Below, one piece after another: positions 1,162-23,656 of a stretch of 64,000 bases of DNA. The position numbers were made by a program, and so were the translations under genes. Source of the DNA: Cellulomonas sp. URHD0024 (GTDB lineage: Bacteria > Actinomycetota > Actinomycetes > Actinomycetales > Cellulomonadaceae); the NCBI RefSeq assembly GCF_000426185.1, contig NZ_AUEW01000001.1, positions 868,001-932,000 on the forward strand, given 5' to 3'. The notes beneath the pieces were generated by a model. That model ran no database searches, was not told where the DNA came from, and was given only the letters and a program-made list of their open reading frames with translations. Each line of letters begins with the position of its first letter. The first letter of the stretch is position 1.

Positions 1162-1449
1162 ATGGTCTGGTCCCTGGTCGGCGGCGGCGCGATCCTCGCA
1201 CTCGCCCTGTTCGCCATCGACCGGATGGTCGCGCGGGGCTGGTTCGACCGGCGGACCCCCCGGGAGCGGCCCGCGGCGTCCTCCGGAACCGGATCCGGGT
1301 TCCTCGGTGACCTGATCGACGTCTTCCAGCCCAACCACGTGCACCTCACGGCTGAGCAGGAGCGTCAGGAGGCTGACATCCAGCACGCCGAGGACGCCTG
1401 CCTGCCCATCGACCTCGACTCCGGCCACGTCCGCCTCGATCCCCGGTAG
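1162..1449 (+). CDS. Small membrane-anchored protein, DUF6191-like
   Basis: A 95-residue protein starting at ATG 1162 with one N-terminal membrane segment (about residues 3-19, LVGGGAILALALFAID). A short basic linker and a Ser/Gly stretch lead to a soluble tail containing FLGDLIDVFQPNHVHL followed by TAEQERQEAD. The tail resembles the short actinobacterial family DUF6191; that assignment is from memory of the pattern and is only moderately sure. Function is unknown. It lies 20 bases after the MBL-fold gene on the same strand. Confidence 0.6.
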   Translation: MVWSLVGGGAILALALFAIDRMVARGWFDRRTPRERPAASSGTGSGFLGDLIDVFQPNHVHLTAEQERQEADIQHAEDACLPIDLDSGHVRLDPR

Positions 1450-1482
1450 CGGGCCCCCGAGTCGGCGCCTAGCGTGCCTGGC

Positions 1483-1890
1483 ATGCCTCCTGTGATCTCC
1501 CAGCTGGTGATCGACTCCGCGAACCCCTACGCCCTGGCCGCATGGTGGCGCGACGTCCTCGACTGGACCTACGTGTGGGACCCGGCGGCCGGGGACGACG
1601 AGATCGAGCTCGCACCGCCCGACGGCTCCGCGACCAACCTGCTGTTCGTCAAGGTCGACGACACCAGGTCCGTGAAGAACCGCCTCCACCTCGACCTCCG
1701 CCCGCCGAACGGCTCCACCCAGCAGTCCGAGCTCGACCGCCTGCAGGCCCTGGGCGCCGTCCCTCTCGACATCGGCCAGGGCGACGTCCCCTGGCGCGTG
1801 CTCGCGGACCCGGAAGGCAACGAGTTCTGCCTGCTGGGCCGCACACCCGCCGAGCAGGCCGCCCGCGAGGCTGAGGAAGCCAGCGACTGA
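1483..1890 (+). CDS. VOC-superfamily (glyoxalase-like) protein
   Basis: A 135-residue protein of the vicinal oxygen chelate fold. It begins with QLVIDSANPYALAAWWRDVLDW, the usual first strand and helix. A central segment reads RLHLDLRP, and the C-terminus has WRVLADPEGNEFCLLGR, the typical last strand (ADPEGNEF). Members include glyoxalase, dioxygenase and antibiotic-binding proteins; the substrate here is not predictable. The ATG at 1483 is preferred; a GTG nine bases earlier is an alternative. It ends 100 bases before the 3' end of the RNase P RNA gene, which is on the opposite strand. Confidence 0.8.
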   Translation: MPPVISQLVIDSANPYALAAWWRDVLDWTYVWDPAAGDDEIELAPPDGSATNLLFVKVDDTRSVKNRLHLDLRPPNGSTQQSELDRLQALGAVPLDIGQGDVPWRVLADPEGNEFCLLGRTPAEQAAREAEEASD

Positions 1891-1990
1891 TCCGGCTGGC
1901 GCACGCTCGGACCGGGCGGAGAACCGCGCGAAGACCGGCGAGCAGGTGAGTGTCGAGGTGTCGACCCACCTGGTCGGTTCGAGCTGTTGT

Positions 1991-2386
1991 GCGCGGATGA
2001 GTCAGTCGATACGCCGGGTTCTGTCCTCGCGCGCGGTTGCCCGCAGCTGCGCGAGTGGCGGCCATCCCTCTACGACGTACGTTGCCGCACGCCTCCAGCG
2101 GCCTACCCGGGAGCTCGGGCGAGCAGCCCTCGAACGCTCCCTGTCTGACCTTGCTCCGGGTGGGGTTTACCGAGCCGCACCGGTCACCCGGCACGCTGGT
2201 GGTCTCTTACACCACCGTTTCACCCTTACCTCCTCGGCCGAGGCCGAGAAGGCGGTCTGTTCTCTGTGGCACTTTCCCGCGGGTCACCCCGGGTGGGTGT
2301 TACCCACCACCCTGCTCTGCGGAGCCCGGACGTTCCTCGGCGGGCCCGGAGGCCCGACGCGGCCGCCTGACTGACTCATCCGCGCC
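1991..2386 (-). ncRNA. rnpB: RNase P RNA (bacterial type A)
   Basis: About 396 nt on the minus strand. The two ends form a long P1 helix: bases 1991-2007 (gcgcggatgagtcagtc) are complementary to the block at 2371-2386. Near the 5' end the transcript reads GAGGAACGTCCGGGCTCC (rc of about 2323-2340), the conserved CR-I element with one change. The 3' part reads GGACAGAACCCGGCGTAT, the conserved CR-V region. Length and GC-rich helices fit actinobacterial RNase P RNA, the catalytic subunit that trims tRNA 5' ends. It sits about 20 bases downstream of the tautomerase stop, so its promoter probably overlaps the end of that gene. Confidence 0.96.
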
Positions 2387-2406
2387 GCAAGCGTAGCCGC
2401 AACTGC

Positions 2407-2790
2407 CTAGACGTCGACCCGGTAGTCCAGGGAGAGCTCGTCGCCGGAGACCCCGCGAATGCCCCAGTTCTGCGGTGGGCTCTCGATGATGATGATCTCG
2501 AGGTCGTCGGCGGCCAGGCCGAGCGTGGGCGCGACGTCGTCGTAGAACGCGGCGATCAGGGCCCGACGAGCAGCGACCGACCGTCCCGTGAAGCACAGGA
2601 TCTCAACGACCAGGTAGTCCTTCGATCGGGGCGCGACCAGGTCGTCCGCGTCGAGCAGGAGGAACCGGTGGAACCGCTTCTCCGGCGGAAGGCCCCACGT
2701 CCCGACGATCACCCGGTGCACGGCATCCGACACCGAGCCGCGGCGGTCCTGCCAGACGTCACGCCGGCCGTAGATCTTCACGTGCGCCAT
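2407..2790 (-). CDS. Tautomerase-family protein
   Basis: A 127-residue protein of the 4-oxalocrotonate tautomerase-like family (Tautomerase_2 type). Recognisable blocks are VHRVIVGTWGLPPEKRFHRF, LVVEILCFTGRSVAARRALI and ESPPQNWGIRGVSGDEL near the C-terminus. The mature N-terminus would be Ala (MAHVKIYG) rather than the catalytic Pro1 of classical tautomerases, so enzymatic tautomerase activity is uncertain; relatives I recall begin MAQVKIYG, so this looks like a subfamily trait. The start ATG at 2790 is 47 bases from the divergent yaaA gene. Cytoplasmic. Confidence 0.8.
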   Translation of the reverse strand: MAHVKIYGRRDVWQDRRGSVSDAVHRVIVGTWGLPPEKRFHRFLLLDADDLVAPRSKDYLVVEILCFTGRSVAARRALIAAFYDDVAPTLGLAADDLEIIIIESPPQNWGIRGVSGDELSLDYRVDV

Positions 2791-2837
2791 GCGGTCCTCC
2801 TCGCGTTGCCTCGTCGCGCGGAGCCTACAGTTCAGGC

Positions 2838-3620
2838 GTGCTCGTGCTCCTGCCGCCCTCCGAGGGCAAGACGCCGCCGCGCGCCCGCGGCCCCCTTCTG
2901 GACCTCGACGCCCTGTCCGCCCCGGGTCTGACCCCGATGCGCGAGAAGGTGCTCGACGCGCTCGCCGCGGTCAGCGCGTCGCCGGACGCGCTCGACATCT
3001 TGGGCGTCGGGCCGAGCATCGCCGACGACGTCGCCCGGAACGTCGCGCTGCGCACCGCAACGACGGCGCCGGCCACGAAGGTCTACACGGGGGTCCTCTA
3101 CGCGGCGGCCGGGATGGACCGGCTGACACCGACGGCACGGGTGCGGGCGGCGGACTCGGTCCGCATCGTGTCCGGGCTGTGGGGTCTGGTGGCACCCGAC
3201 GACCACATCCCGGCGTACCGGCTGTCGATGGGCACGGACCTGCCCGGCATCGGCCCGCTCGCGGGTGCGTGGAGGGCGGCGCTCGGAGTCGAGCTGCAGG
3301 GACGCGCCGAGGGCGAGCTGGTCGTCGACTGCCGGTCGGCGACCTACCTGGCGGCGTGGCACCCGCCGAGGACCGCCGACTGGGTGGCGGTGCGCGTGCT
3401 CCGTCAGGAGAGGGACGGATCGCGATCGGTGGTGTCGCACAGCGCCAAGCACACGCGCGGGGTGCTGACCCGGCACCTGCTCACCCGTCGCGGAAAGGCG
3501 CCGCACGACGCGACGACCCTGGCCCGGGTCGCGGGTGAGCTCGTCGGCACGGACCTGCTCGCCGTCGAGCTCGGCCCGCCGGCCCGAGGTGCGCGGACGC
3601 TGTCGCTCGTCGTCGCGTGA
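2838..3620 (+). CDS. yaaA: Peroxide-stress protein YaaA (DUF328)
   Basis: 260 residues from GTG 2838. The N-terminus LVLLPPSEGKTPP is the hallmark of the YaaA/DUF328 family, followed by LYAAAGMDRLTP, RIVSGLWGLVAPDDHIPAYRL and the C-terminal SHSAKHTRG block. In E. coli YaaA limits intracellular iron during hydrogen peroxide stress and binds DNA; the same role here is inferred. The family is usually about 250 residues, so this is full length. The last four bases (GTGA) overlap the start of the downstream permease, showing translational coupling. Confidence 0.9.
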   Translation: MLVLLPPSEGKTPPRARGPLLDLDALSAPGLTPMREKVLDALAAVSASPDALDILGVGPSIADDVARNVALRTATTAPATKVYTGVLYAAAGMDRLTPTARVRAADSVRIVSGLWGLVAPDDHIPAYRLSMGTDLPGIGPLAGAWRAALGVELQGRAEGELVVDCRSATYLAAWHPPRTADWVAVRVLRQERDGSRSVVSHSAKHTRGVLTRHLLTRRGKAPHDATTLARVAGELVGTDLLAVELGPPARGARTLSLVVA

Positions 3621-5918: not shown

Positions 5919-6665
5919 TCAGCCGCGCGGCTGCTCGGGCAGCCGCACCAGGATCCGCCCGCACTCCTCGCACCGCACCACCTGGTCCTCGGGCGCCTTG
6001 CGGATGGCCTCGACGTCCAGCGGGTTCAGCTCGAGCCGGCAGCTCTCGCAGCGGGCACCGCGCAGCGCACCGGCCCCGCGACCTCCCAGCTGCGCCCGAA
6101 GCTTCTCGTACAGGGCGACCAGTGCCGCGTCGAGGCCCTGGACCGCAACAGCTCGCTCCGCGCGGATCTTCTCGGCGTCGGTGTCCAGCGCTGCGAACGC
6201 CGCATCCCGCTCCTCCACGACGGCGGCCCGACGCGACGCCAGCGAGTCGTGCGCGCTCGTGACCTCGGCCAGCGCCTTCTCGTGCGCCTCGAGCCGCTCC
6301 ATGACGTCCAGCTCGACCTCCTCGAGGTCCGACTGCCGACGACCGAGCGCGACCAGCTCGTGCTGCAGCGCCTGCAGGTCCTTCGGGCTCCCCTGACCGG
6401 AGTCGAGCCGCGCCTGGTCCCGCGCGGCGCGGTTGGCGACCTGCTCGACGTCGGCCTCGGCCTTGGTCAGCTCTCGCTTGAGGTCGCCGACCGCGGTCCT
6501 GCTGGTCACCAACGCGGTGTGCAGGTCGTCCACCTGCGAGTCGAGCTCCACCAGGCGTGCCAGCTCCGGCAGGGTCCGTCGCTTGTGCGCGATCTGGTCC
6601 AGCCGGGTGTCGAGCTCCTGGACGTCGAGCAGTCGGCGCTGGTCCGCTGCGGGGGCTGTGGTCAC
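5919..6665 (-). CDS. Coiled-coil protein with C-terminal C4 zinc ribbon
   Basis: 248 residues starting at GTG 6665, whose first bases overlap the Nif3 stop (GTGA). The first ~190 residues are charged heptad-rich helices (LLDVQELDTRLDQIAHKRR... and later helical stretches), predicted to form a long hairpin coiled coil. The C-terminus has a zinc ribbon, CESCRLELNP with RCEECGRILVRL. This is the CT398/CdsZ-like family found beside nif3 in many actinobacteria and other phyla. Proposed roles involve nucleic acid or secretion partners but none is proven here. Cytoplasmic; not an enzyme by any visible motif. Confidence 0.88.
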   Translation of the reverse strand: MTTAPAADQRRLLDVQELDTRLDQIAHKRRTLPELARLVELDSQVDDLHTALVTSRTAVGDLKRELTKAEADVEQVANRAARDQARLDSGQGSPKDLQALQHELVALGRRQSDLEEVELDVMERLEAHEKALAEVTSAHDSLASRRAAVVEERDAAFAALDTDAEKIRAERAVAVQGLDAALVALYEKLRAQLGGRGAGALRGARCESCRLELNPLDVEAIRKAPEDQVVRCEECGRILVRLPEQPRG

Positions 6666-7858
6666 GGGTGTCCTTCGGTCGAGGCGTGTGGTGCGGTCTG
6701 CTCGGGGCTCGCGACGCGACCCGTCCACGGGTCGGTGCTCAACGTGCTGACGCGCACCTCAACCGTAGTCCCCGCGGCGGCGGCATCGTGCTGCAGGGCC
6801 CGAGCGGCGTGCTCGAGCCACGGCCACTCGGACGCGAAGTGGGCGACGTCGACAAGGTACGGGAGCCCGTCCTCGTGCTCCGCGCGTTCCCGAAGCTCGG
6901 ATGCCGGGTGGTGGCGCAGGTCGGCCGTCACGTAGGCGTCGACGCCGGACCGACGCACCGCGTCGAACAGCGAGTCGCCAGACCCCCCCACCACGGCGAC
7001 GCGTTCCACCCGGCCGTCCGGGTCGCCGGCGAACCTCACACCCTGTTCCGTGAACGGCAGAGCCTTCGCGACGACGTCCGCGAACCCACGCAGAGTCGTC
7101 GGCACCGCCAGCCGTCCGACCCGGCCGATGCCGGTCGACCCCGGCCAGGACGCGAGCTCCAGCACGTCGAACGCAGGCTCCTCGTAGGGGTGCGCCTGTC
7201 TCATGGCGGCGACCACGGCTGCGCGCAACCGGCGCGGGGCGACCATCTCGACGCGGGCCTCGACGACCCTCGACGCGACGCCTGCGGTGCCGATCGCGGG
7301 GTTCGCCTGCTCCGACGGCGTGAACGTGCCTTCGCCGGTCGACGTCCACGCGCACCGCGAGTACTCCCCGATCGCCCCGGCACCCACGGCGGCGAGCGCG
7401 TCGACGACCCGCTCGGCGCCCGCGACCGGCACGAAGACCACGTGCTTGTCGAGCGCCTCGCCCGGTGCGGCGTCCAGCGGCGAGGTCTCGACGAGCCCGA
7501 GCGCCTGCGCGAGCGCGTCTGCGACGCCGCCCGAGGCCGCATCGGCGTTGGTGTGTGCCGTGTAGAGCCCGATCCCGCCGAGCACCAGGCGGTGCAGCAG
7601 CGCGCCCTTGAAGGTCGTCGCCGCGATCGAGTGGACCGGCTTGAGGAGCAACGGGTGGTGGGTCACCACGAGGTCCGCCCCCCATGCCGCGGCCTCGTCG
7701 ACGACCGTCGCGACCGGGTCGACGGCGAACAGGACGCGTGCGACGGGCTGCGACGGGTCGCCCGTCACGAGCCCGACCGCGTCCCAGGACTGCGCCGTGG
7801 AGGGCGGGTAGCGACGTTCGAGCAGCTGCACGACGTCGGCCAGGGTCGCTGCGGTCAC
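6662..7858 (-). CDS. Nif3-like dinuclear metal centre protein
   Basis: 398 residues from GTG 7858. N-terminal ADVVQLLERRYPPSTAQSWDAVGLVTGD, metal-binding VVTHHPLLL, HTNADAA and the C-terminal DLRHHPASEL and DVAHFASEW blocks supply the His/Asp/Glu ligands of the hexameric NIF3/YbgI family. The length, with an insertion between the two metal-binding halves, is usual for the longer Gram-positive form. Suggested activity is GTP cyclohydrolase I type 2-like or a phosphatase-like hydrolase; function in vivo is not settled. First gene of the operon Nif3, zinc-ribbon, RNase HI/phosphatase. Confidence 0.92.
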   Translation of the reverse strand: MTAATLADVVQLLERRYPPSTAQSWDAVGLVTGDPSQPVARVLFAVDPVATVVDEAAAWGADLVVTHHPLLLKPVHSIAATTFKGALLHRLVLGGIGLYTAHTNADAASGGVADALAQALGLVETSPLDAAPGEALDKHVVFVPVAGAERVVDALAAVGAGAIGEYSRCAWTSTGEGTFTPSEQANPAIGTAGVASRVVEARVEMVAPRRLRAAVVAAMRQAHPYEEPAFDVLELASWPGSTGIGRVGRLAVPTTLRGFADVVAKALPFTEQGVRFAGDPDGRVERVAVVGGSGDSLFDAVRRSGVDAYVTADLRHHPASELRERAEHEDGLPYLVDVAHFASEWPWLEHAARALQHDAAAAGTTVEVRVSTLSTDPWTGRVASPEQTAPHASTEGHP

Positions 7859-7867
7859 GCCTGCACG

Positions 7868-8722
7868 TTACCCAACGCGGGCCACGTCGCCGACGCCGAT
7901 CGAGCCCGTCCGGACGGGCACCATCTGGATCCCGAACCACACCTCGCCGTCGCGGCGCCGGTGACGGGCCAGCGTGCGCAACGGCTCCTTGCCCTTGTGC
8001 TGCGTGTCCGGGTCGATCGTGGTCAGCACGCACCGCCCGCAGGTGTCCGCGAACCGGAGGAGGACGTCTCCGATGGTCACGGTCGGCCAGCCGTCCTCCT
8101 CGAAGGGCTCGAGGTCTCCGTCGAGGACGATGTTGGGCCGGAACCGGCGCATGTCGAGCGTCGGGCGAGGCTCCGGCGGCACCCGCCCGGCGTCGAGCGC
8201 CTGCTGCACCAGCTCGTCGTGGACCTCGTCGGCCCAGCGGTTCAGCCGGGCCAGCGACGCGGTCGTCGTGACGTGCACGGGGCCGGTGTCCGTGAACGCC
8301 AGCGGGTCGTCGAGCGTGCCGCCGTGCCGCTCGGACATCCCCCGACGCCGCGGGTCGTCGAGCCACACGAACCGCACCGACCGCCCCAGCAGCTCGGAGC
8401 ACCACTGCGCGGCCTCGGCGCCCGCATGGGTCGCGACCGGCAGGCGCGTCATCTCGATCGGCACATCGGGCGCTCCCTGCGGCTCAGCCACGGTGATCGT
8501 CGGCAGACCGGCGCCGGACAGCTCCACGCCTCCGTCGACGGTCCTCGCGTGCGCCGCCAGCATCCGCGGGAACCTGCGCGCGGTCAGGGTGGCACCGTCG
8601 TCCTCGACCAGCATCCAGCGCCGGTCGCCCCGCGGTCCGGCGACGTCGACGGCCATCCTCGACAGCGGGGTGCCGGCGAAGGACTTCACCGGGAACACGG
8701 TCAGCGCGGAGACGACGGGCAC
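7868..8722 (-). CDS. MOSC-domain protein (YcbX-like)
   Basis: 284 residues with an N-terminal MOSC beta-barrel (VSALTVFPVKSFAG, GPRGDRRWMLVEDDG, RRFPRML) and a C-terminal MOSC domain (RFRPNIVLDG, FEEDGWPTVTIG, FADTCGRCVLTTIDPDTQHKG). The conserved Cys of CGRCVLTTID is the residue associated with molybdenum-cofactor sulfur transfer or binding. YcbX-type proteins detoxify N-hydroxylated bases in E. coli with a molybdenum cofactor. The GTG at 8722 is chosen because homology starts there and a -10-like TGTTAT lies just upstream, suggesting an almost leaderless message; a GTG at 8767 would add 15 unconserved residues. Confidence 0.85.
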   Translation of the reverse strand: MPVVSALTVFPVKSFAGTPLSRMAVDVAGPRGDRRWMLVEDDGATLTARRFPRMLAAHARTVDGGVELSGAGLPTITVAEPQGAPDVPIEMTRLPVATHAGAEAAQWCSELLGRSVRFVWLDDPRRRGMSERHGGTLDDPLAFTDTGPVHVTTTASLARLNRWADEVHDELVQQALDAGRVPPEPRPTLDMRRFRPNIVLDGDLEPFEEDGWPTVTIGDVLLRFADTCGRCVLTTIDPDTQHKGKEPLRTLARHRRRDGEVWFGIQMVPVRTGSIGVGDVARVG

Positions 8723-8778
8723 CAGCGGACCATAACAATCAGGCAACCTCGGCACAGGTTCCGCCACGTTCTGCCAGC

Positions 8779-9294
8779 ATGTGCCGCATGCTCCGTGGCC
8801 TCACCGTCGCCGTGTCCGTCGTCGCACTCACCTGCATGCTGAGCGCATGCGCGAGCACGCTCGACCCCGAGACCCCGTCACCGACGTCCTCGTCGAGCGA
8901 TGCACCGAATGCCTCACCCGCCGCTGCCGCGAGCAGCACACCGGCCGGACCCTCCGCCCAGTGGCCGACCGCCGTGTCGGAAGAAGACTTCATGTCGGGC
9001 ACAGAGGCCGCCGCCGTCTGGCTGGTCACGGGGCCTGAGGACGACGCCGAGTCGTGGAACCCGATCGAGACCGCCGCTGCCGAGGCCGGGTACGACGTCG
9101 CCTCGATGCCGGTCGGCTGCCACGACACGTCCGACGCCCTCCTCGAAGCTCCCGGGACGGACATCTGGTCGGACGCCTGGGGTCTGGCGGTGTTCTTCTC
9201 GTCCGACGCGGACGCCGCCGCGTTCGTGGCCAGGTGGACCGGAGACGCACCCGTGGTCGCCGGGATGGGCCACGTGCAGTGCGACTTCGGCTGA
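8779..9294 (+). CDS. Putative lipoprotein of unknown function
   Basis: 171 residues (or 168 from the second ATG at 8788). A short basic start, hydrophobic core and lipobox LLSAC-type end (CMLSAC) mark a lipoprotein signal peptide, then a Ser/Pro/Ala-rich tether of about 35 residues. The folded part (about residues 60-171) contains two cysteines (VGCHDTSDA and VQCDFG) that could form a disulfide outside the membrane. I do not recognise the family. It is transcribed away from the MOSC gene and converges on hipA with an eight-base gap. Confidence 0.75.
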   Translation: MCRMLRGLTVAVSVVALTCMLSACASTLDPETPSPTSSSSDAPNASPAAAASSTPAGPSAQWPTAVSEEDFMSGTEAAAVWLVTGPEDDAESWNPIETAAAEAGYDVASMPVGCHDTSDALLEAPGTDIWSDAWGLAVFFSSDADAAAFVARWTGDAPVVAGMGHVQCDFG

Positions 9295-9301
9295 TCCGCG
9301 C

Positions 9302-10543
9302 CTAGCGGAGCCGCTGCACGCGGCTCTCCACGTGGTCCCACGCCGCCGCGGAGACGCCTGGGTGCACCGACCGGTCGATGTCGACCAGCGCGGCCGAGGT
9401 CGCTTCGACGGTCTGGGTCACCGCCCGCCGCGCGCGGACGGGCGGGAGACCCCAGGAGACACCCTCCGCGACGAGGTCGTCGACGGTGATGTCGGCGATG
9501 GCCCGCCGGCCGGCGACGTCGAGCGCCAGGAGGCCCGACGAGACCCCGGTGTGCTCGTGCATCGACACGTCGTACGCCGGTGCCAGACGGACCCTCGCCC
9601 CGTCGTCCTGGCGCACGAACGAGTGGTTCTTGGCGTGCGCGTCGGTGTTGCCGACCAGCACGGTGAAGGTGGCGAGCCGCAGCAGCGGGTCGGTGGTGGA
9701 TCCGCCGTCCGTGAGCACGCGAGCAGCCGCCGCGTAGGACGGGAGGGCGCGCCCACGCTGGAACTTGCGGTCGGGGTCCGCCGTGGACAGGCCGAGCGCC
9801 TGAGCGAGGTCTTCCTGGTGGACGCGACGCACCGAGCCGCCGTCGGTGACGCGGTCGTACCGCTCCACGACGATCGCTCGCACGTCCGCGAACCGCTCGA
9901 CCCGTGCCTGCACGCTGGTCAGCCCGACGCGCCGAGCCAGGTCGAGCGCGGCCGCCTCGGTGTCGATGAGGTCACGCGTCGCCGACCGGTCCGGCCGGGA
10001 CAGCTTGAGGATGTGGGTCGACGGTGCACCGCCACGCACCCGGGCCCACCCGCCGGGCGTCTTCGCGAGCGCGACCTTGGGTTCCAGCCCGGCGAGGGAC
10101 GTCAGGGAGTCCAGTCGCTCGCCACCTCCGCCGTGCCGTGCCGCATGGGTCAGCATCGCGGCGATCTCGTCGGCGTCGACGGGCTCGAGCCGGCCGGTCG
10201 TTGCCGGGTCCGGGGCCCCCTCGTCGACGAGCACGACGGCGCCGGCGGTGTCCTTGCCGTACACCGCCAGCATCGCCAGCGTGTCGTCGGGGTCGATGCG
10301 GTGCTCGGCAGCCATGGTGCTGCGGGCGCGTCCTTCCGGGAGCAACCCCTCGAGCCAGACCCGGACGCGGGTGGGCTGCCGACCCTCGGGCGTCCCCACG
10401 GGCAGCAGGTGGGAGAGGACCCGGGAACCGTTCCCCCAACGGCGCAGGGCCTCGTCGCTCCACCTCAGCGCGATGCCCGACCGCTCCGGGCGCACGGTGG
10501 CGGCCAGCGTGCCGTAGAGCCAGACGTCCAGGGCGCCGGTCAC
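9302..10543 (-). CDS. hipA: HipA-type serine/threonine kinase toxin
   Basis: 413 residues, the usual length for HipA. The N-terminal subdomain has GIALRWSDEALRRWG and VWLEGLLPEG. The central P-loop-like region reads TSLAGLEPKVALAK, followed by GGAPSTHILKLSRPD. The catalytic loop is GNTDAHAKNHSF and the metal-binding LAPAYDVSMHEH equals the DFG position. In E. coli HipA phosphorylates glutamyl-tRNA synthetase and induces persistence; the target of this homologue is not known. The GTG start overlaps the antitoxin stop (GTGA), so the pair is translationally coupled. Confidence 0.9.
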   Translation of the reverse strand: MTGALDVWLYGTLAATVRPERSGIALRWSDEALRRWGNGSRVLSHLLPVGTPEGRQPTRVRVWLEGLLPEGRARSTMAAEHRIDPDDTLAMLAVYGKDTAGAVVLVDEGAPDPATTGRLEPVDADEIAAMLTHAARHGGGGERLDSLTSLAGLEPKVALAKTPGGWARVRGGAPSTHILKLSRPDRSATRDLIDTEAAALDLARRVGLTSVQARVERFADVRAIVVERYDRVTDGGSVRRVHQEDLAQALGLSTADPDRKFQRGRALPSYAAAARVLTDGGSTTDPLLRLATFTVLVGNTDAHAKNHSFVRQDDGARVRLAPAYDVSMHEHTGVSSGLLALDVAGRRAIADITVDDLVAEGVSWGLPPVRARRAVTQTVEATSAALVDIDRSVHPGVSAAAWDHVESRVQRLR

Positions 10544-20842: not shown

Positions 20843-22354
20843 TCAGTACCCGCTGAACGTGTCCGTCCGGACACGCCGGACGCCTGCGCCACGCAGGACC
20901 TTGCGGGCGTGGTCGACCATGCCGGGCGAGCCCGAGACGTAGCCGACCCGGCTCGCGGCGTCCGGGACCTGCGCCCGCAGCAGCTCTGCGTCGAGCAGGG
21001 GCGCGGACACGTGGGTCCAGCACTGGGGCAGGTCGTCGGGGATCGCCGGCGACACGACGACGACGCGCGCGCCCGAGGCGAGCAGCACGTCCGGGTACGC
21101 GGGGGGGTCACCAGGACCCAGGAGCAGGACGACCACGACGTCGCGCGGGTCGCCGGAGCGCACGAGGGACGCGAGGTGGCTGACGAACGGGGTCACGCCG
21201 ATCCCGCCCGCGACGAGCAGCAGCGGCACCGAGGCGTCGCGCGGGAGCAGGAAGTCGCCACCGACGGCCGTGGCCCGTACGAGGCCCCCCTCGGGGACGG
21301 AGCTCAGGGCGGCCTTGAAGGTGCTCGGTGCGTCCGAGAGCCGGAACGCCACGGTCAGCTCGTCGCCGGGCGCGCTGGACATCGAGAACACCCGCCGGGA
21401 GCCACGCCCGTCGGCGTCGGCGTGCGGGATGTGCAGCTCGATCCACTGCCCAGGCTCCCAGCGCACCGGGTTCTCGGGCGCGAAGGCGACCTCGCGCACG
21501 CCGGGGACGACGGTCCGGTGCCCCTGCACCCGGAGGTGGACCGCACGACGCTGACCGAACAGGAACGCCAGGACGTTCCCCACCAGCAGCGCCAGCTCCG
21601 GCGAGCTGTACACCGAGCCGAAGTGGAACGGCACGAACGTCAGCGCACCGACCACAGCCGCCTCGGCGAGCTGCTGTCGTCGTCGCGGCGGCAAGGTCAG
21701 CGGCTCGGTGAGCATGAAGCACGCGGCAAACACGAGGGGGTAGGACTGGAACGCGGTGACGAGGGCGTCGAGCGGCGGGGACCCGTCGGAGACGAGCCGG
21801 GAAACCACGACCGCCAGCGACGCGACGAGATAGGTGGCCACCAGCAGTGCGCGCCGCGTGCGCAGGACGACGGCGAGCCCGGCGAGGGCGACCACCGGCA
21901 GCAGCGCCGGCGTCGCGACCCACCACGCTGCAGGGAAGCCGCCGAACGGCACGGCGACGAGCCCCCCGAGAAAGGCGCCGGCCGCCGCGGGGTTGAGCAG
22001 GTGCCGGGCCCGTACCGCGATCAGGAACTTGGAGAGGCCGGCGACGACGGCGGCAGCCGCGATCGTGAGGAACGAGGCCACGTTCAGCTGTGGCCAGAAC
22101 AGGAGCGCGAGGATGAGCCCGGTGATCACCGAGGACTCGACGTGCACGCGCGTCCGCCACAGGGCGCCGCACAGTCGGCTCGTGAGGGCCGTGACGGCGA
22201 CGGCCACGACCGCGCCCAGGAAGATCGCCAGGGGGTCCTGATGCACCGAGCCGACCAGTGCCAGCACGATCGCGGACAGGAGGATCGCCCCGAGGGCCCA
22301 CGTCGTGACGCGGTACATCGTGGTCTTCCCGAGGGATCCGGACAGGCCGCTCAT
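20843..22354 (-). CDS. RnfD-like membrane protein fused to FAD/NAD(P) reductase
   Basis: 503 residues from ATG 22354, whose ATGA overlaps the apbE stop. Residues about 10-250 form some eight membrane helices resembling RnfD/NqrB (LILALLFWPQLN, HLLNPAAAGAFLGGL, YPLVFAACFMLTEPLTLPP). Residues about 265-500 are a ferredoxin-NADP reductase module: FAD-binding SRRVFSMSSAP, nucleotide-binding LLLVAGGIGVTPFVSHL and the C-terminal GYVSGSPGMVDHARK. It probably passes electrons from cytoplasmic NAD(P)H through the membrane to the flavinylated lipoprotein encoded upstream. Last gene of a three-gene operon. Confidence 0.87.
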   Translation of the reverse strand: MSGLSGSLGKTTMYRVTTWALGAILLSAIVLALVGSVHQDPLAIFLGAVVAVAVTALTSRLCGALWRTRVHVESSVITGLILALLFWPQLNVASFLTIAAAAVVAGLSKFLIAVRARHLLNPAAAGAFLGGLVAVPFGGFPAAWWVATPALLPVVALAGLAVVLRTRRALLVATYLVASLAVVVSRLVSDGSPPLDALVTAFQSYPLVFAACFMLTEPLTLPPRRRQQLAEAAVVGALTFVPFHFGSVYSSPELALLVGNVLAFLFGQRRAVHLRVQGHRTVVPGVREVAFAPENPVRWEPGQWIELHIPHADADGRGSRRVFSMSSAPGDELTVAFRLSDAPSTFKAALSSVPEGGLVRATAVGGDFLLPRDASVPLLLVAGGIGVTPFVSHLASLVRSGDPRDVVVVLLLGPGDPPAYPDVLLASGARVVVVSPAIPDDLPQCWTHVSAPLLDAELLRAQVPDAASRVGYVSGSPGMVDHARKVLRGAGVRRVRTDTFSGY

Positions 22355-23214
22355 GCGAAGACCTCCCCCTGGAGGCCCAGCGAGTAGCGCAGCCGCCCGT
22401 CGGACCCGAGCCGCGCGTACGTATGCGGAATCGCGGCTTCGAGCAGGTCTGCATCGGCGAAGAAGTGCGCGGTCGCCAGACCGTCGGCGACCATCGCGCA
22501 CGGCGCCACCACCCACGTGGCAGCCACGCGCTTCGTGGGCATGCCCGTCCTCGCGTCGAGGACGTGGTGCAACCCGTCACCCCAAGCCCGTCGGTCCACC
22601 GCCGAGCCGCACAGCGCGGCGTCGGCAAGCTCCACCACACCGACGGCACGCGTCGCGTCGCCGGGCTGCTGCAACGCGACCCGGAACGCCTCACCCCCGC
22701 GGTGCACCAGGTCGCCGCCGGCGTCGACGACGTACTGCTCGATCCCGCACGCCCTCAGCTCGGCGGCGACGAGATCCACGAGCTGACCCTTCCCGGCAGC
22801 GCCGACGTCGAGCAGCACGGGTTCTCGAACGACCAGCACATCGCCGTCGCGCTCGAGCACGGCATCCCAGGCGGGTGCCGCCTCGGGTGCGCCGGAGGGT
22901 CGCAGGGAGTAGTCGGCGTCGTAGCCGAGGCGAACGAGGCTCCGCCCCACCAGGGGTGAGACCGCCCCGTCCGTGACTCGACCCAGCAGCGCGTAGAGGT
23001 CGAGCAGTGGCCCGGCCTCGGCGGGCAGGCGGTAGGTGCCCGCCTCCCGCGCCATCAGGCTGACCAGCGAGTCGGCTCGGAACCGCGACCAGACGGCGTC
23101 GTACGCGTCGATCCGGTCACGGACCCGCCGCAACGTGACGACGTCGAGCGGTCCGTCGAGGTAGATCGACCAGCGGGTACCTATCGCGTCGAACGACGCA
23201 TCAGGCGTGCGCAT
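22351..23214 (-). CDS. apbE: FAD:protein FMN transferase
   Basis: 287 residues, ATG 23214. Family blocks are FDAIGTRWSIYL, AYDAVWSRFRADSLVSLM, DVGAAGKGQLVDLVA, VVDAGGDLVHRG and the Mg/FAD-binding HHVLDARTGMPTKR. ApbE attaches FMN through a phosphoester bond to Ser/Thr of partner FMN-binding domains. The partner is the lipoprotein just upstream, whose reading frame overlaps this one by 14 bases. The downstream redox protein overlaps by four, so the three are one transcription unit. A typical secretion signal is not evident, so the side of the membrane where it acts is unclear. Confidence 0.92.
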   Translation of the reverse strand: MRTPDASFDAIGTRWSIYLDGPLDVVTLRRVRDRIDAYDAVWSRFRADSLVSLMAREAGTYRLPAEAGPLLDLYALLGRVTDGAVSPLVGRSLVRLGYDADYSLRPSGAPEAAPAWDAVLERDGDVLVVREPVLLDVGAAGKGQLVDLVAAELRACGIEQYVVDAGGDLVHRGGEAFRVALQQPGDATRAVGVVELADAALCGSAVDRRAWGDGLHHVLDARTGMPTKRVAATWVVAPCAMVADGLATAHFFADADLLEAAIPHTYARLGSDGRLRYSLGLQGEVFA

Positions 23215-23656
23215 CGGACGCGATCTGCGCCAGCGCCGCGTTGAAGCCCTCCGGCGTGAGGGACGCGCCGGAGACGACGTCGACGTCCGCGTCGGCGACA
23301 GCCTTCCCGACGACCACGCCGGACACCGCGGAGGCGAACGCGCTCTGGAACTTCTGGCTCATCGGGTTGGTCGCCGCGGGCGTCACGGCGACAGCGGTGA
23401 TCACGCCGTCCGCGAGCGTGACGGAGACCCCGATCGACTCGTCACCTGCCGGGGACGTGTAGGCCCCGGTCGCGGTGTAGGTGCCGTTCTTGTAGTCCGA
23501 GACGTTCGTGGAGGAGGGTGCTGACTCCGTCGCGGTCGTGCTCGCGGCCACGTCCGCGCCGGTCCCGTGGTCCGTCGACTGCGAGCAGGACGCGAGTGCC
23601 GCGACCAGTGACGCTCCGGAAACGAGCGCGACCGTGTGCCTGTGGGGTGTCCTCAT
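23201..23656 (-). CDS. FMN-binding lipoprotein, probable ApbE substrate
   Basis: 151 residues from ATG 23656. Signal peptide with lipobox ALASC (Cys24), a Ser/Thr-rich tether to about residue 53, then an FMN_bind domain: YKNGTYTATGAYTSPAG, GVITAVAVTPAATNPMS, and the flavinylation motif VVSGASLTPEGF (candidate acceptor Ser132; the family more often has Thr at this place). It should sit outside the membrane carrying covalent FMN and accept electrons from the RnfD-like reductase. The terminal acceptor is not indicated by any neighbour. Confidence 0.88.
   Translation of the reverse strand: MRTPHRHTVALVSGASLVAALASCSQSTDHGTGADVAASTTATESAPSSTNVSDYKNGTYTATGAYTSPAGDESIGVSVTLADGVITAVAVTPAATNPMSQKFQSAFASAVSGVVVGKAVADADVDVVSGASLTPEGFNAALAQIASDAHA

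Follow-up and report, generated by a model that had tools for sequence, protein, structure and literature searches.

Three overlapping genes in the window, a 64,000-nucleotide stretch of the genome of Cellulomonas sp. URHD0024 (contig NZ_AUEW01000001.1, positions 868,001 to 932,000), encode a flavin mononucleotide (FMN)-binding lipoprotein of the FMN_bind family, an ApbE flavin transferase, and a membrane protein fused to a flavin reductase. With a probability of roughly three in four, this cassette is a self-contained wire that carries electrons in one direction across the membrane and belongs to the class of flavinylation systems described as NQR/RNF-like. We favor this reading because the cassette is kept as a unit, in 34 of 34 loci of the window's order when judged by gene starts and in 75 of 80 named loci, and because of the predicted fold of the fusion, the RnfD/NqrB landmarks and lost covalent flavin site of its membrane domain, the Ser-His-Asp catalytic residues of the ApbE, and the absence of PF02508 pump subunits from the genome.

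In the proposed mechanism, the cytosolic C-terminal domain of the fusion would oxidize reduced nicotinamide adenine dinucleotide or its phosphate (NAD(P)H) with flavin adenine dinucleotide (FAD) and hand the electrons to a non-covalent flavin in the NqrB/RnfD-like membrane domain, from which they would pass to FMN on Ser132 of the lipid-anchored FMN_bind protein. The neighboring ApbE would attach this FMN, and the final acceptor would be a diffusible or surface component from outside the locus, such as ferric iron, a quinone, free flavin or another redox protein. NAD(P)H-driven transfer to an extracytosolic FMN is the proposal in the published accounts of the class (PMC8238504, PMC11334425). 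The same pathway had been put forward in a preliminary description of this DNA, and it fits the published proposal, the domain order, the AlphaFold model and the predicted fold matches to RnfD, NqrB and NqrF.

Judged by sequence, the window locus is an ordinary member of this class, which was defined by Méheust et al. (2021) from 127 clusters, mainly in Actinobacteria and candidate phyla, with a proposed one-way electron flow (PMC8238504). As in the published clusters, FMN_bind and ApbE are combined with a single NqrB/RnfD-like protein fused to a cytosolic NAD-binding reductase, the other pump subunits and the covalent threonine of the membrane domain are missing, and the range covers the same Actinobacteria and candidate phyla. 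The pairing of ApbE and FMN_bind with a signal or lipidation site, which the class definition names, is present as adjacent genes and a lipobox, LASC. Huang et al. (2024) modeled a complex from Ktedonobacter racemifer, in which the covalent flavin lies near the non-covalent site in the membrane domain (PMC11334425). That the class was already described goes beyond the preliminary description, as do the missing export signal of the ApbE and the lineage-wide serine acceptor; the latter two, together with a separate ApbE clade, are on present sequences the parts of note beyond the known class. In the published work available to us, the class is known from genome surveys and models alone, and the two redox proteins of this locus, a putative minimal wire from NAD(P)H to the cell surface, are within reach of purification and assay. 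The cassette might also account for the current that Cellulomonas produces by an unexplained route, and it offers a natural enzyme–substrate pair in which ApbE specificity seems shifted to serine.

As the preliminary description had it, the three genes overlap within positions 20843–23656. All lie on the minus strand. The lipoprotein gene (23201..23656, 151 aa; Pfam FMN_bind 27.6 bits, cut-off 22) overlaps the ApbE gene (22351..23214, 287 aa; Pfam ApbE 127 bits, cut-off 25.6) by 14 bases (23201..23214), and the latter overlaps the fusion gene (20843..22354, 503 aa) by the 4 bases of an ATGA (22351..22354). The mechanically called open-reading frame (ORF) of the fusion begins at 22516, and the start was placed at 22354 because homologues and the ATGA overlap point there. 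Among the named loci kept, the closest relative is Cellulomonas sp. Root930, with a fusion 70% identical.

The membrane domain of the fusion (residues ~ 1–270) matches Pfam NQR2_RnfD_RnfE (PF03116) at 30.7 bits against a cut-off of 27.7, and the reductase domain (~ 271–503) carries the motifs RRVFS, GGIGVTPF and a C-terminal FSGY. Its NAD domain scores under the Pfam cut-off for PF00175 (16.5 of 22 bits, E 0.014) and matches the flavohemoprotein model NF009805 at E 1.7e-12, below that model's own cut-off, while an alignment profile matched benzoate dioxygenase reductase (1krh, E 4.4e-17) and NqrF (7qu3, E 5.2e-9). No 2Fe-2S domain was found in the fusion by Pfam. An AlphaFold2 model from 28 sequences had a mean predicted local distance difference test score of 92 and a predicted template modeling score of 0.88. 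Compared by VIA-align, its N-terminal part matched RnfD (8rbq_D; Z 23.5, root-mean-square deviation (rmsd) 3.8, 251 aligned) and NqrB (8acw_B; Z 22.3, rmsd 3.8, 252 aligned), and its C-terminal part matched NqrF (7qu5; Z 22.6, rmsd 2.9, 230 aligned) and a flavohemoprotein-type FAD/NAD domain (4eh1_A; Z 24.6, rmsd 2.7, 222 aligned), with NqrF and FNR-type domains overall at Z about 21–25; these comparisons cover the families on a list of matches. Homology of the C-terminal domain to the NAD-binding domain of NqrF, part of the class definition, is borne out by both the profile and the fold (Z ~ 22). Foldseek alone returned no RnfD or NqrB chain among its first 50 rows, which were all matches to reductase-containing proteins.

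Positions invariant among 28 fusions include N121-P122, W144-W145, F209, M214, E217-P218 and T220 and, in the reductase part, R320-R321, G384, G386, T388-P389, F500 and G502. The membrane domain keeps the RnfD/NqrB landmarks NPA and FMLTEP, the latter aligned to FMATDP of NqrB. A membrane-domain profile covering both lineages of the family aligned weakly with RnfD (E 8e-5) and NqrB (E 0.002), and the HMMER alignments flanked RnfD 143–218 and NqrB 212–272 and did not cross them; the covalent threonine of NqrB, which we take to be Thr236, lies within the latter stretch. Covalent FMN at the WWVATP of the window was ruled out as a family feature, as its Thr position varies (T, D, A, S, N). The skipped stretch and this unconserved nearest threonine agree with the loss of the covalent site published for the class (PMC11334425).

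The preliminary description had proposed electron transfer without Rnf or Nqr complexes, and the genome bears this out: PF02508 (RnfA/E, NqrD/E) had no match in the window's own genome and was present in 4 of 14 control genomes, so that a full Rnf/Nqr complex was rejected. The cassette shares with Rnf and Na+-NQR an RnfD/NqrB-like membrane domain, an NqrF-like FAD domain, an RnfG/NqrC-like FMN_bind protein and ApbE maturation, but it has two redox polypeptides where those complexes have six, and it lacks a 2Fe-2S domain and the RnfA/E-NqrD/E subunits. Since the membrane domain lacks the covalent flavin stretch, neither a return path nor ion pumping would be expected.

The fusion was matched at E 1e-20 in 37 of 297 genomes of the window's order, its own included, two of the matches (genomes G130 and G016) covering the reductase part only. 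The other 34 loci that were fetched all carry lipoprotein, ApbE and fusion on one strand in that order of starts, which is more than chance would give. A check by 3′ ends counted 33, the failing locus being taken to be L063, which is in order by starts. In this locus (~ 6611–9409, minus strand), no stop interrupts the ApbE frame before the fusion end, and it runs on for 932 codons across the entire fusion gene; a stop may have been lost, the sequence may be in error, or GC-rich DNA may have left the frame open by chance.

A genome scan found at least 286 relatives, of which 80 named loci were kept, spanning Actinomycetota, Saccharibacteria, other Patescibacteria, one member of the Chloroflexota (Dictyobacter) and a few entries filed as bacterium. 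The 75 with all three genes in order leave one locus that begins inside ApbE at a contig edge (L101), two in which the fusion match lacks the first 41 and 49 residues and has no partners (L107 and L146), one with FMN_bind present and ApbE ~ 4 kb off on the other strand (L135), and L144, discussed below. Six peptide patterns found no virus-borne copy in IMG/VR. A fusion tree of 42 rows has one branch (100/98) that splits 32 lineage-A rows from 10 of lineage B, to which L144 had been assigned before the tree was built, and six Patescibacteria-type lineage-A rows adjoin B. The published model came from Ktedonobacter and none of the 80 named loci is so titled; the sole Chloroflexota locus, that of Dictyobacter (L152), falls in lineage B.

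The lipobox cysteine of the window lipoprotein is Cys24 (by pattern rather than by SignalP), and its flavinylation motif is DVVSGAS-LT, with Ser132 as the predicted acceptor when aligned with 34 relatives. Ser132, and serine in place of the usual threonine, had been named in the preliminary description, and the numbering of both residues is correct. The published ApbE substrate motif is D-x-x-[S/T]-G-A-[S/T], in which Ser is allowed and Thr preferred (2025 review, Journal of Biological Chemistry (JBC)), and DVVSGAS falls within it, with an allowed but unusual acceptor. The acceptor position was Ser in all 103 cassette FMN_bind partners, a figure conditional on the search profile, which came from lineage A; of the 103, 100 are distinct (three pairs being duplicates), and among them are the window's own protein and a single row of lineage B (L134). 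Directly before the acceptor stands Ser (99 partners) or Ala (4), and at position −3 Ala (80), Ser (21) or Gly (2). With Ser replacing Ala before the acceptor, 99 of the 103 miss the published motif; the usual lineage-A form, V[AS]GSS-LTS, is in register with SGAT-xTS, and the window retains SGAS.

The control, 30 further FMN_bind domains from this order, had 29 Thr and 1 Ser, all preceded by Gly-Ala; these leaned to canonical domains, since mostly the best-scoring of 60 places were taken. Eight of them come from genomes that also carry the Ser cassette (L001, L203, L206, L212, L214, L216, L217 and L220), and all eight have Thr. In a further set of 12 loci, 9 contained FMN_bind, and their flavinylation-type sites were all Thr once a few low-complexity pattern matches in L183, L185 and L186 were discounted. 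Lineage B, read separately by motif in nine loci (L120, L130, L134, L135, L137, L141, L143, L148 and L152), has [ST]GA[ST], with seven Thr and two Ser acceptors. In these alignments, the Ser acceptor is a fixed state in lineage A, a lineage trait, that occurs twice in B as well. A canonical-motif regular expression found nothing in the cassette lipoproteins of the relatives within the order because these lack the canonical motif. Among the matches listed from a standard Pfam search, the cassette's own FMN_bind gene was reported in five of 10 cassette-bearing genomes (G000, G024, G038, G097 and G111), and other FMN_bind genes alone in the remaining five (G005, G041, G077, G085 and G099), an indication that cassette members can escape both the canonical motif and the standard Pfam profile. 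Two loci, L085 (4678–6540) and L096 (2429–2896), have a second FMN_bind-like ORF with an [AS]GSS motif near the cassette.

The window ApbE belongs to its family both by its Pfam score and by its catalytic residues, Ser197, His210 and Asp237, which were assigned by alignment to a solved ApbE and named as in the review, and which are invariant in 36 of 36 lineage-A rows. In an ApbE tree of 56 rows, these 36, the window's type, are set apart by one branch (100/99), whereas the nine lineage-B rows cluster with 8 of 11 other actinobacterial ApbEs (L184, L188 and L189 lie elsewhere in the tree), a set labeled MsrQ-linked in which 7 of the 11 loci have an MsrQ match. At the catalytic Ser, lineage A has [CA][AG]S[AS], where every B row reads ATSG and the comparison set reads ATS followed mostly by Gly; a fixed R-x-W also marks lineage A. 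Across the sampled sequences, ApbE clade and substrate motif differ together between lineages A and B; as this may reflect a single event, the pairing amounts to one data point for co-evolution. L139, L150 and the window pair a lineage-A ApbE with SGAS, which shows that the change from Ala to Ser does not strictly follow the ApbE clade. Six Patescibacteria-type loci (L115, L117, L139, L140, L142 and L150) have a lineage-A ApbE and a fusion branching beside lineage B, and ApbE may therefore have been exchanged within one fusion family in these genomes. Neither the fixed Ser of lineage A nor its separate ApbE clade was found mentioned in the available portions of the published accounts of the class.

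An export signal is typical of extracytosolic ApbEs, and the window ApbE has no signal peptide, no earlier start in its open frame and no space for a signal ahead of the core. In 87 of 111 cassette ApbEs, no more than 20 residues separate the earliest possible start from the conserved core; 17 others have a longer upstream open frame, and 7 had no match to the core pattern. When the core was placed by hidden Markov model, a test for a hydrophobic N-terminus (15 residues over 1.8) was passed by 0 of 111, 109 of them judgeable and two (L101 and L148) fragments. The highest values were 1.59 (L137) and 1.53 (L120), where the stretch takes in part of the core, and 1.46 (L140), where the extension overlaps the preceding gene. 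The partner lipoproteins have a lipobox by pattern in 95 of 103 cases, and most of the other eight have a hydrophobic start, L125 looking mis-started. A signal-less ApbE as a rule of the phylum was not supported, as 20 of 30 ApbEs in a phylum sample (places with loci kept, best-scoring of 53 matching genomes among 119) passed the same test and one further (L171) resembles a Tat lipoprotein. Tat export of a pre-flavinylated lipoprotein was likewise unsupported as a rule, with RR near the signal start in 19 of 103 partners by a crude count. Cytosolic ApbEs are known (JBC 2025 review), and the missing signal therefore limits the location of the enzyme and not its family membership. A cytosolic enzyme and an exported substrate may be reconciled by flavinylation before export or by export of ApbE through another route; the literature on flavinylation systems, as far as available, yielded no account of a cytosolic ApbE serving an exported lipoprotein in this class.

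One speculative extension, which we hold only tentatively, is that lineage A is a Ser-specific pair whose recognition shifted jointly, from [ST]GA[ST] with TS(G) to [AS]GSS with [AG]S(A), in a separate signal-less ApbE clade, the lipoprotein receiving its flavin in the cytosol, either ahead of Sec export or in the course of it; no outside flavin supply would then be needed. It is improbable, in our judgement, that the lipoprotein is not flavinylated at Ser132 and that ApbE acts on something else in the cytosol. The signal-less ApbE, the Ser acceptor and the non-canonical [AS]GSS motif of the relatives would fit such an enzyme, but the lipoprotein gene neighbors the ApbE gene in 75 of the 80 named loci, the Ser is invariant while flanking positions vary, ApbE type and motif differ together between lineages, and the SGAS of the window lies within the published motif.

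Several observations weigh against the one-way wire. None of the 109 judgeable cassette ApbEs shows an export signal though the presumed substrate is exported, and tested ApbEs use Ser, the acceptor here, less well than Thr in the published work available. PF00175 belongs to the published class definition, and the fusion scores below its cut-off, so that a strict PF00175 screen would miss it. In one of the 80 named loci (L144), a full-length fusion has neither partner nearby. Finally, no biochemistry on any member was found in the accessible literature on the class.

The preliminary description had noted no terminal reductase nearby, which holds for the window: fabF converges on the cassette from its 3′ side, and upstream lie genes for DUF3145, peptide deformylase, an ABC ATPase with an ABC-2 membrane protein, and a TetR regulator. 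Nor was a fourth gene common to relatives across genera found near the cassette, as nearby genes vary by genus, and a conserved terminal partner was rejected on this basis. Neighbor genes were picked with a crude codon score in 40 of the 80 loci kept. Pfam matches on the upstream side (34 proteins, 31 loci) fall into 61 families, the most frequent being arginyl-tRNA synthetase domains, in 6; those on the downstream side (34 proteins, 34 loci) fall into 56 families, led by histidine kinase domains, in 3. Scans for promoters and terminators upstream of the cassette gave no match.

These neighborhoods bear on a rival reading that we consider unlikely, in which the cassette would serve iron assimilation as a dedicated ferric or flavin reductase instead of acting as a wire for respiration or NADH disposal. 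The fusion does resemble NAD(P)H-dependent reductases, and six of the 127 published clusters include the iron transporter VIT1 (PMC8238504). However, no iron gene lies beside the window cassette, and no iron-transport family occurs in at least two neighbors among the 25 of 61 upstream and 25 of 56 downstream families listed; the single matches listed include one Nramp and one ZnuA, and further single iron genes may occur among the remaining families.

A role in extracellular electron transfer, carrying NADH electrons to mineral, humic or electrode acceptors in support of fermentation, is a real possibility, at somewhat less than even odds. The cassette is carried by four of seven Cellulomonas genomes listed, the window's included. 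Patescibacteria and Saccharibacteria are fermenters, and the presence of the cassette in them therefore fits an electron sink. The cassette would work like the flavin-based system of Listeria (PplA, FmnB, Ndh2, EetA/B), by moving NADH electrons to a flavinylated surface lipoprotein; that system, by its description, uses other membrane parts and another dehydrogenase. Current production has been reported for four Cellulomonas strains, by a route that the authors of the study describe as unknown (2022, PMC9611719). Against such a role, three of the seven genomes lack the cassette, and the authors, in the parts of the study available, found no wall-localized flavoprotein (PMC9611719).

Moreover, an MsrQ-like flavinylation locus in the window's own genome could do the same. 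This genome has two ApbE genes (three match rows, two being one gene) and three FMN_bind genes. The MsrQ-like locus (L071, C1:380000-399000, ORFs ~ 7536–10326) contains a membrane FNR protein, an FMN_bind protein with DTVSGAT and the second ApbE, likewise without a signal peptide. Such actinobacterial systems share ApbE, FMN_bind and a membrane redox protein with the cassette, and differ in a membrane protein described in the published portions available as heme-binding, in the Thr acceptor of DTVSGAT and in the ApbE branch. The third FMN_bind gene (L072, contig C7, ~ 9787–10524, minus strand) has DTVSGAT and a proline-rich linker, and its 19 kb locus has no ApbE or MsrQ match. In another locus, L186, ORF 1175–3619 encodes FMN_bind with three SGATYTS sites and lies next to MsrQ and ApbE; it resembles published multi-flavinylated proteins.

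Recurring neighbor clusters, whose nature was judged by eye and by mixed profile scans, include ABC-type ATPases scattered over varying positions (57 ORFs across 30 loci). A convergent histidine kinase lies on the opposite strand just downstream of the fusion, mainly in Microbacterium (L112, L119, L128, L146 and others), also in L147, and as a fragment at a contig end in L134; it is a possible regulator or plain synteny. A gene for ~ 900 aa lies upstream in the same direction, again mainly in Microbacterium (L109 3772–6516, L126, L132, L133, L138 and L146), and by size and an E1-E2_ATPase match in a mixed scan it may encode a cation-pumping P-type ATPase. The contig of L132 is filed under Stenotrophomonas maltophilia, has a Microbacterium-like cassette and is probably contamination. 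The window's own neighbors recur in Cellulomonas-like relatives, with one further peptide-deformylase match in L144.

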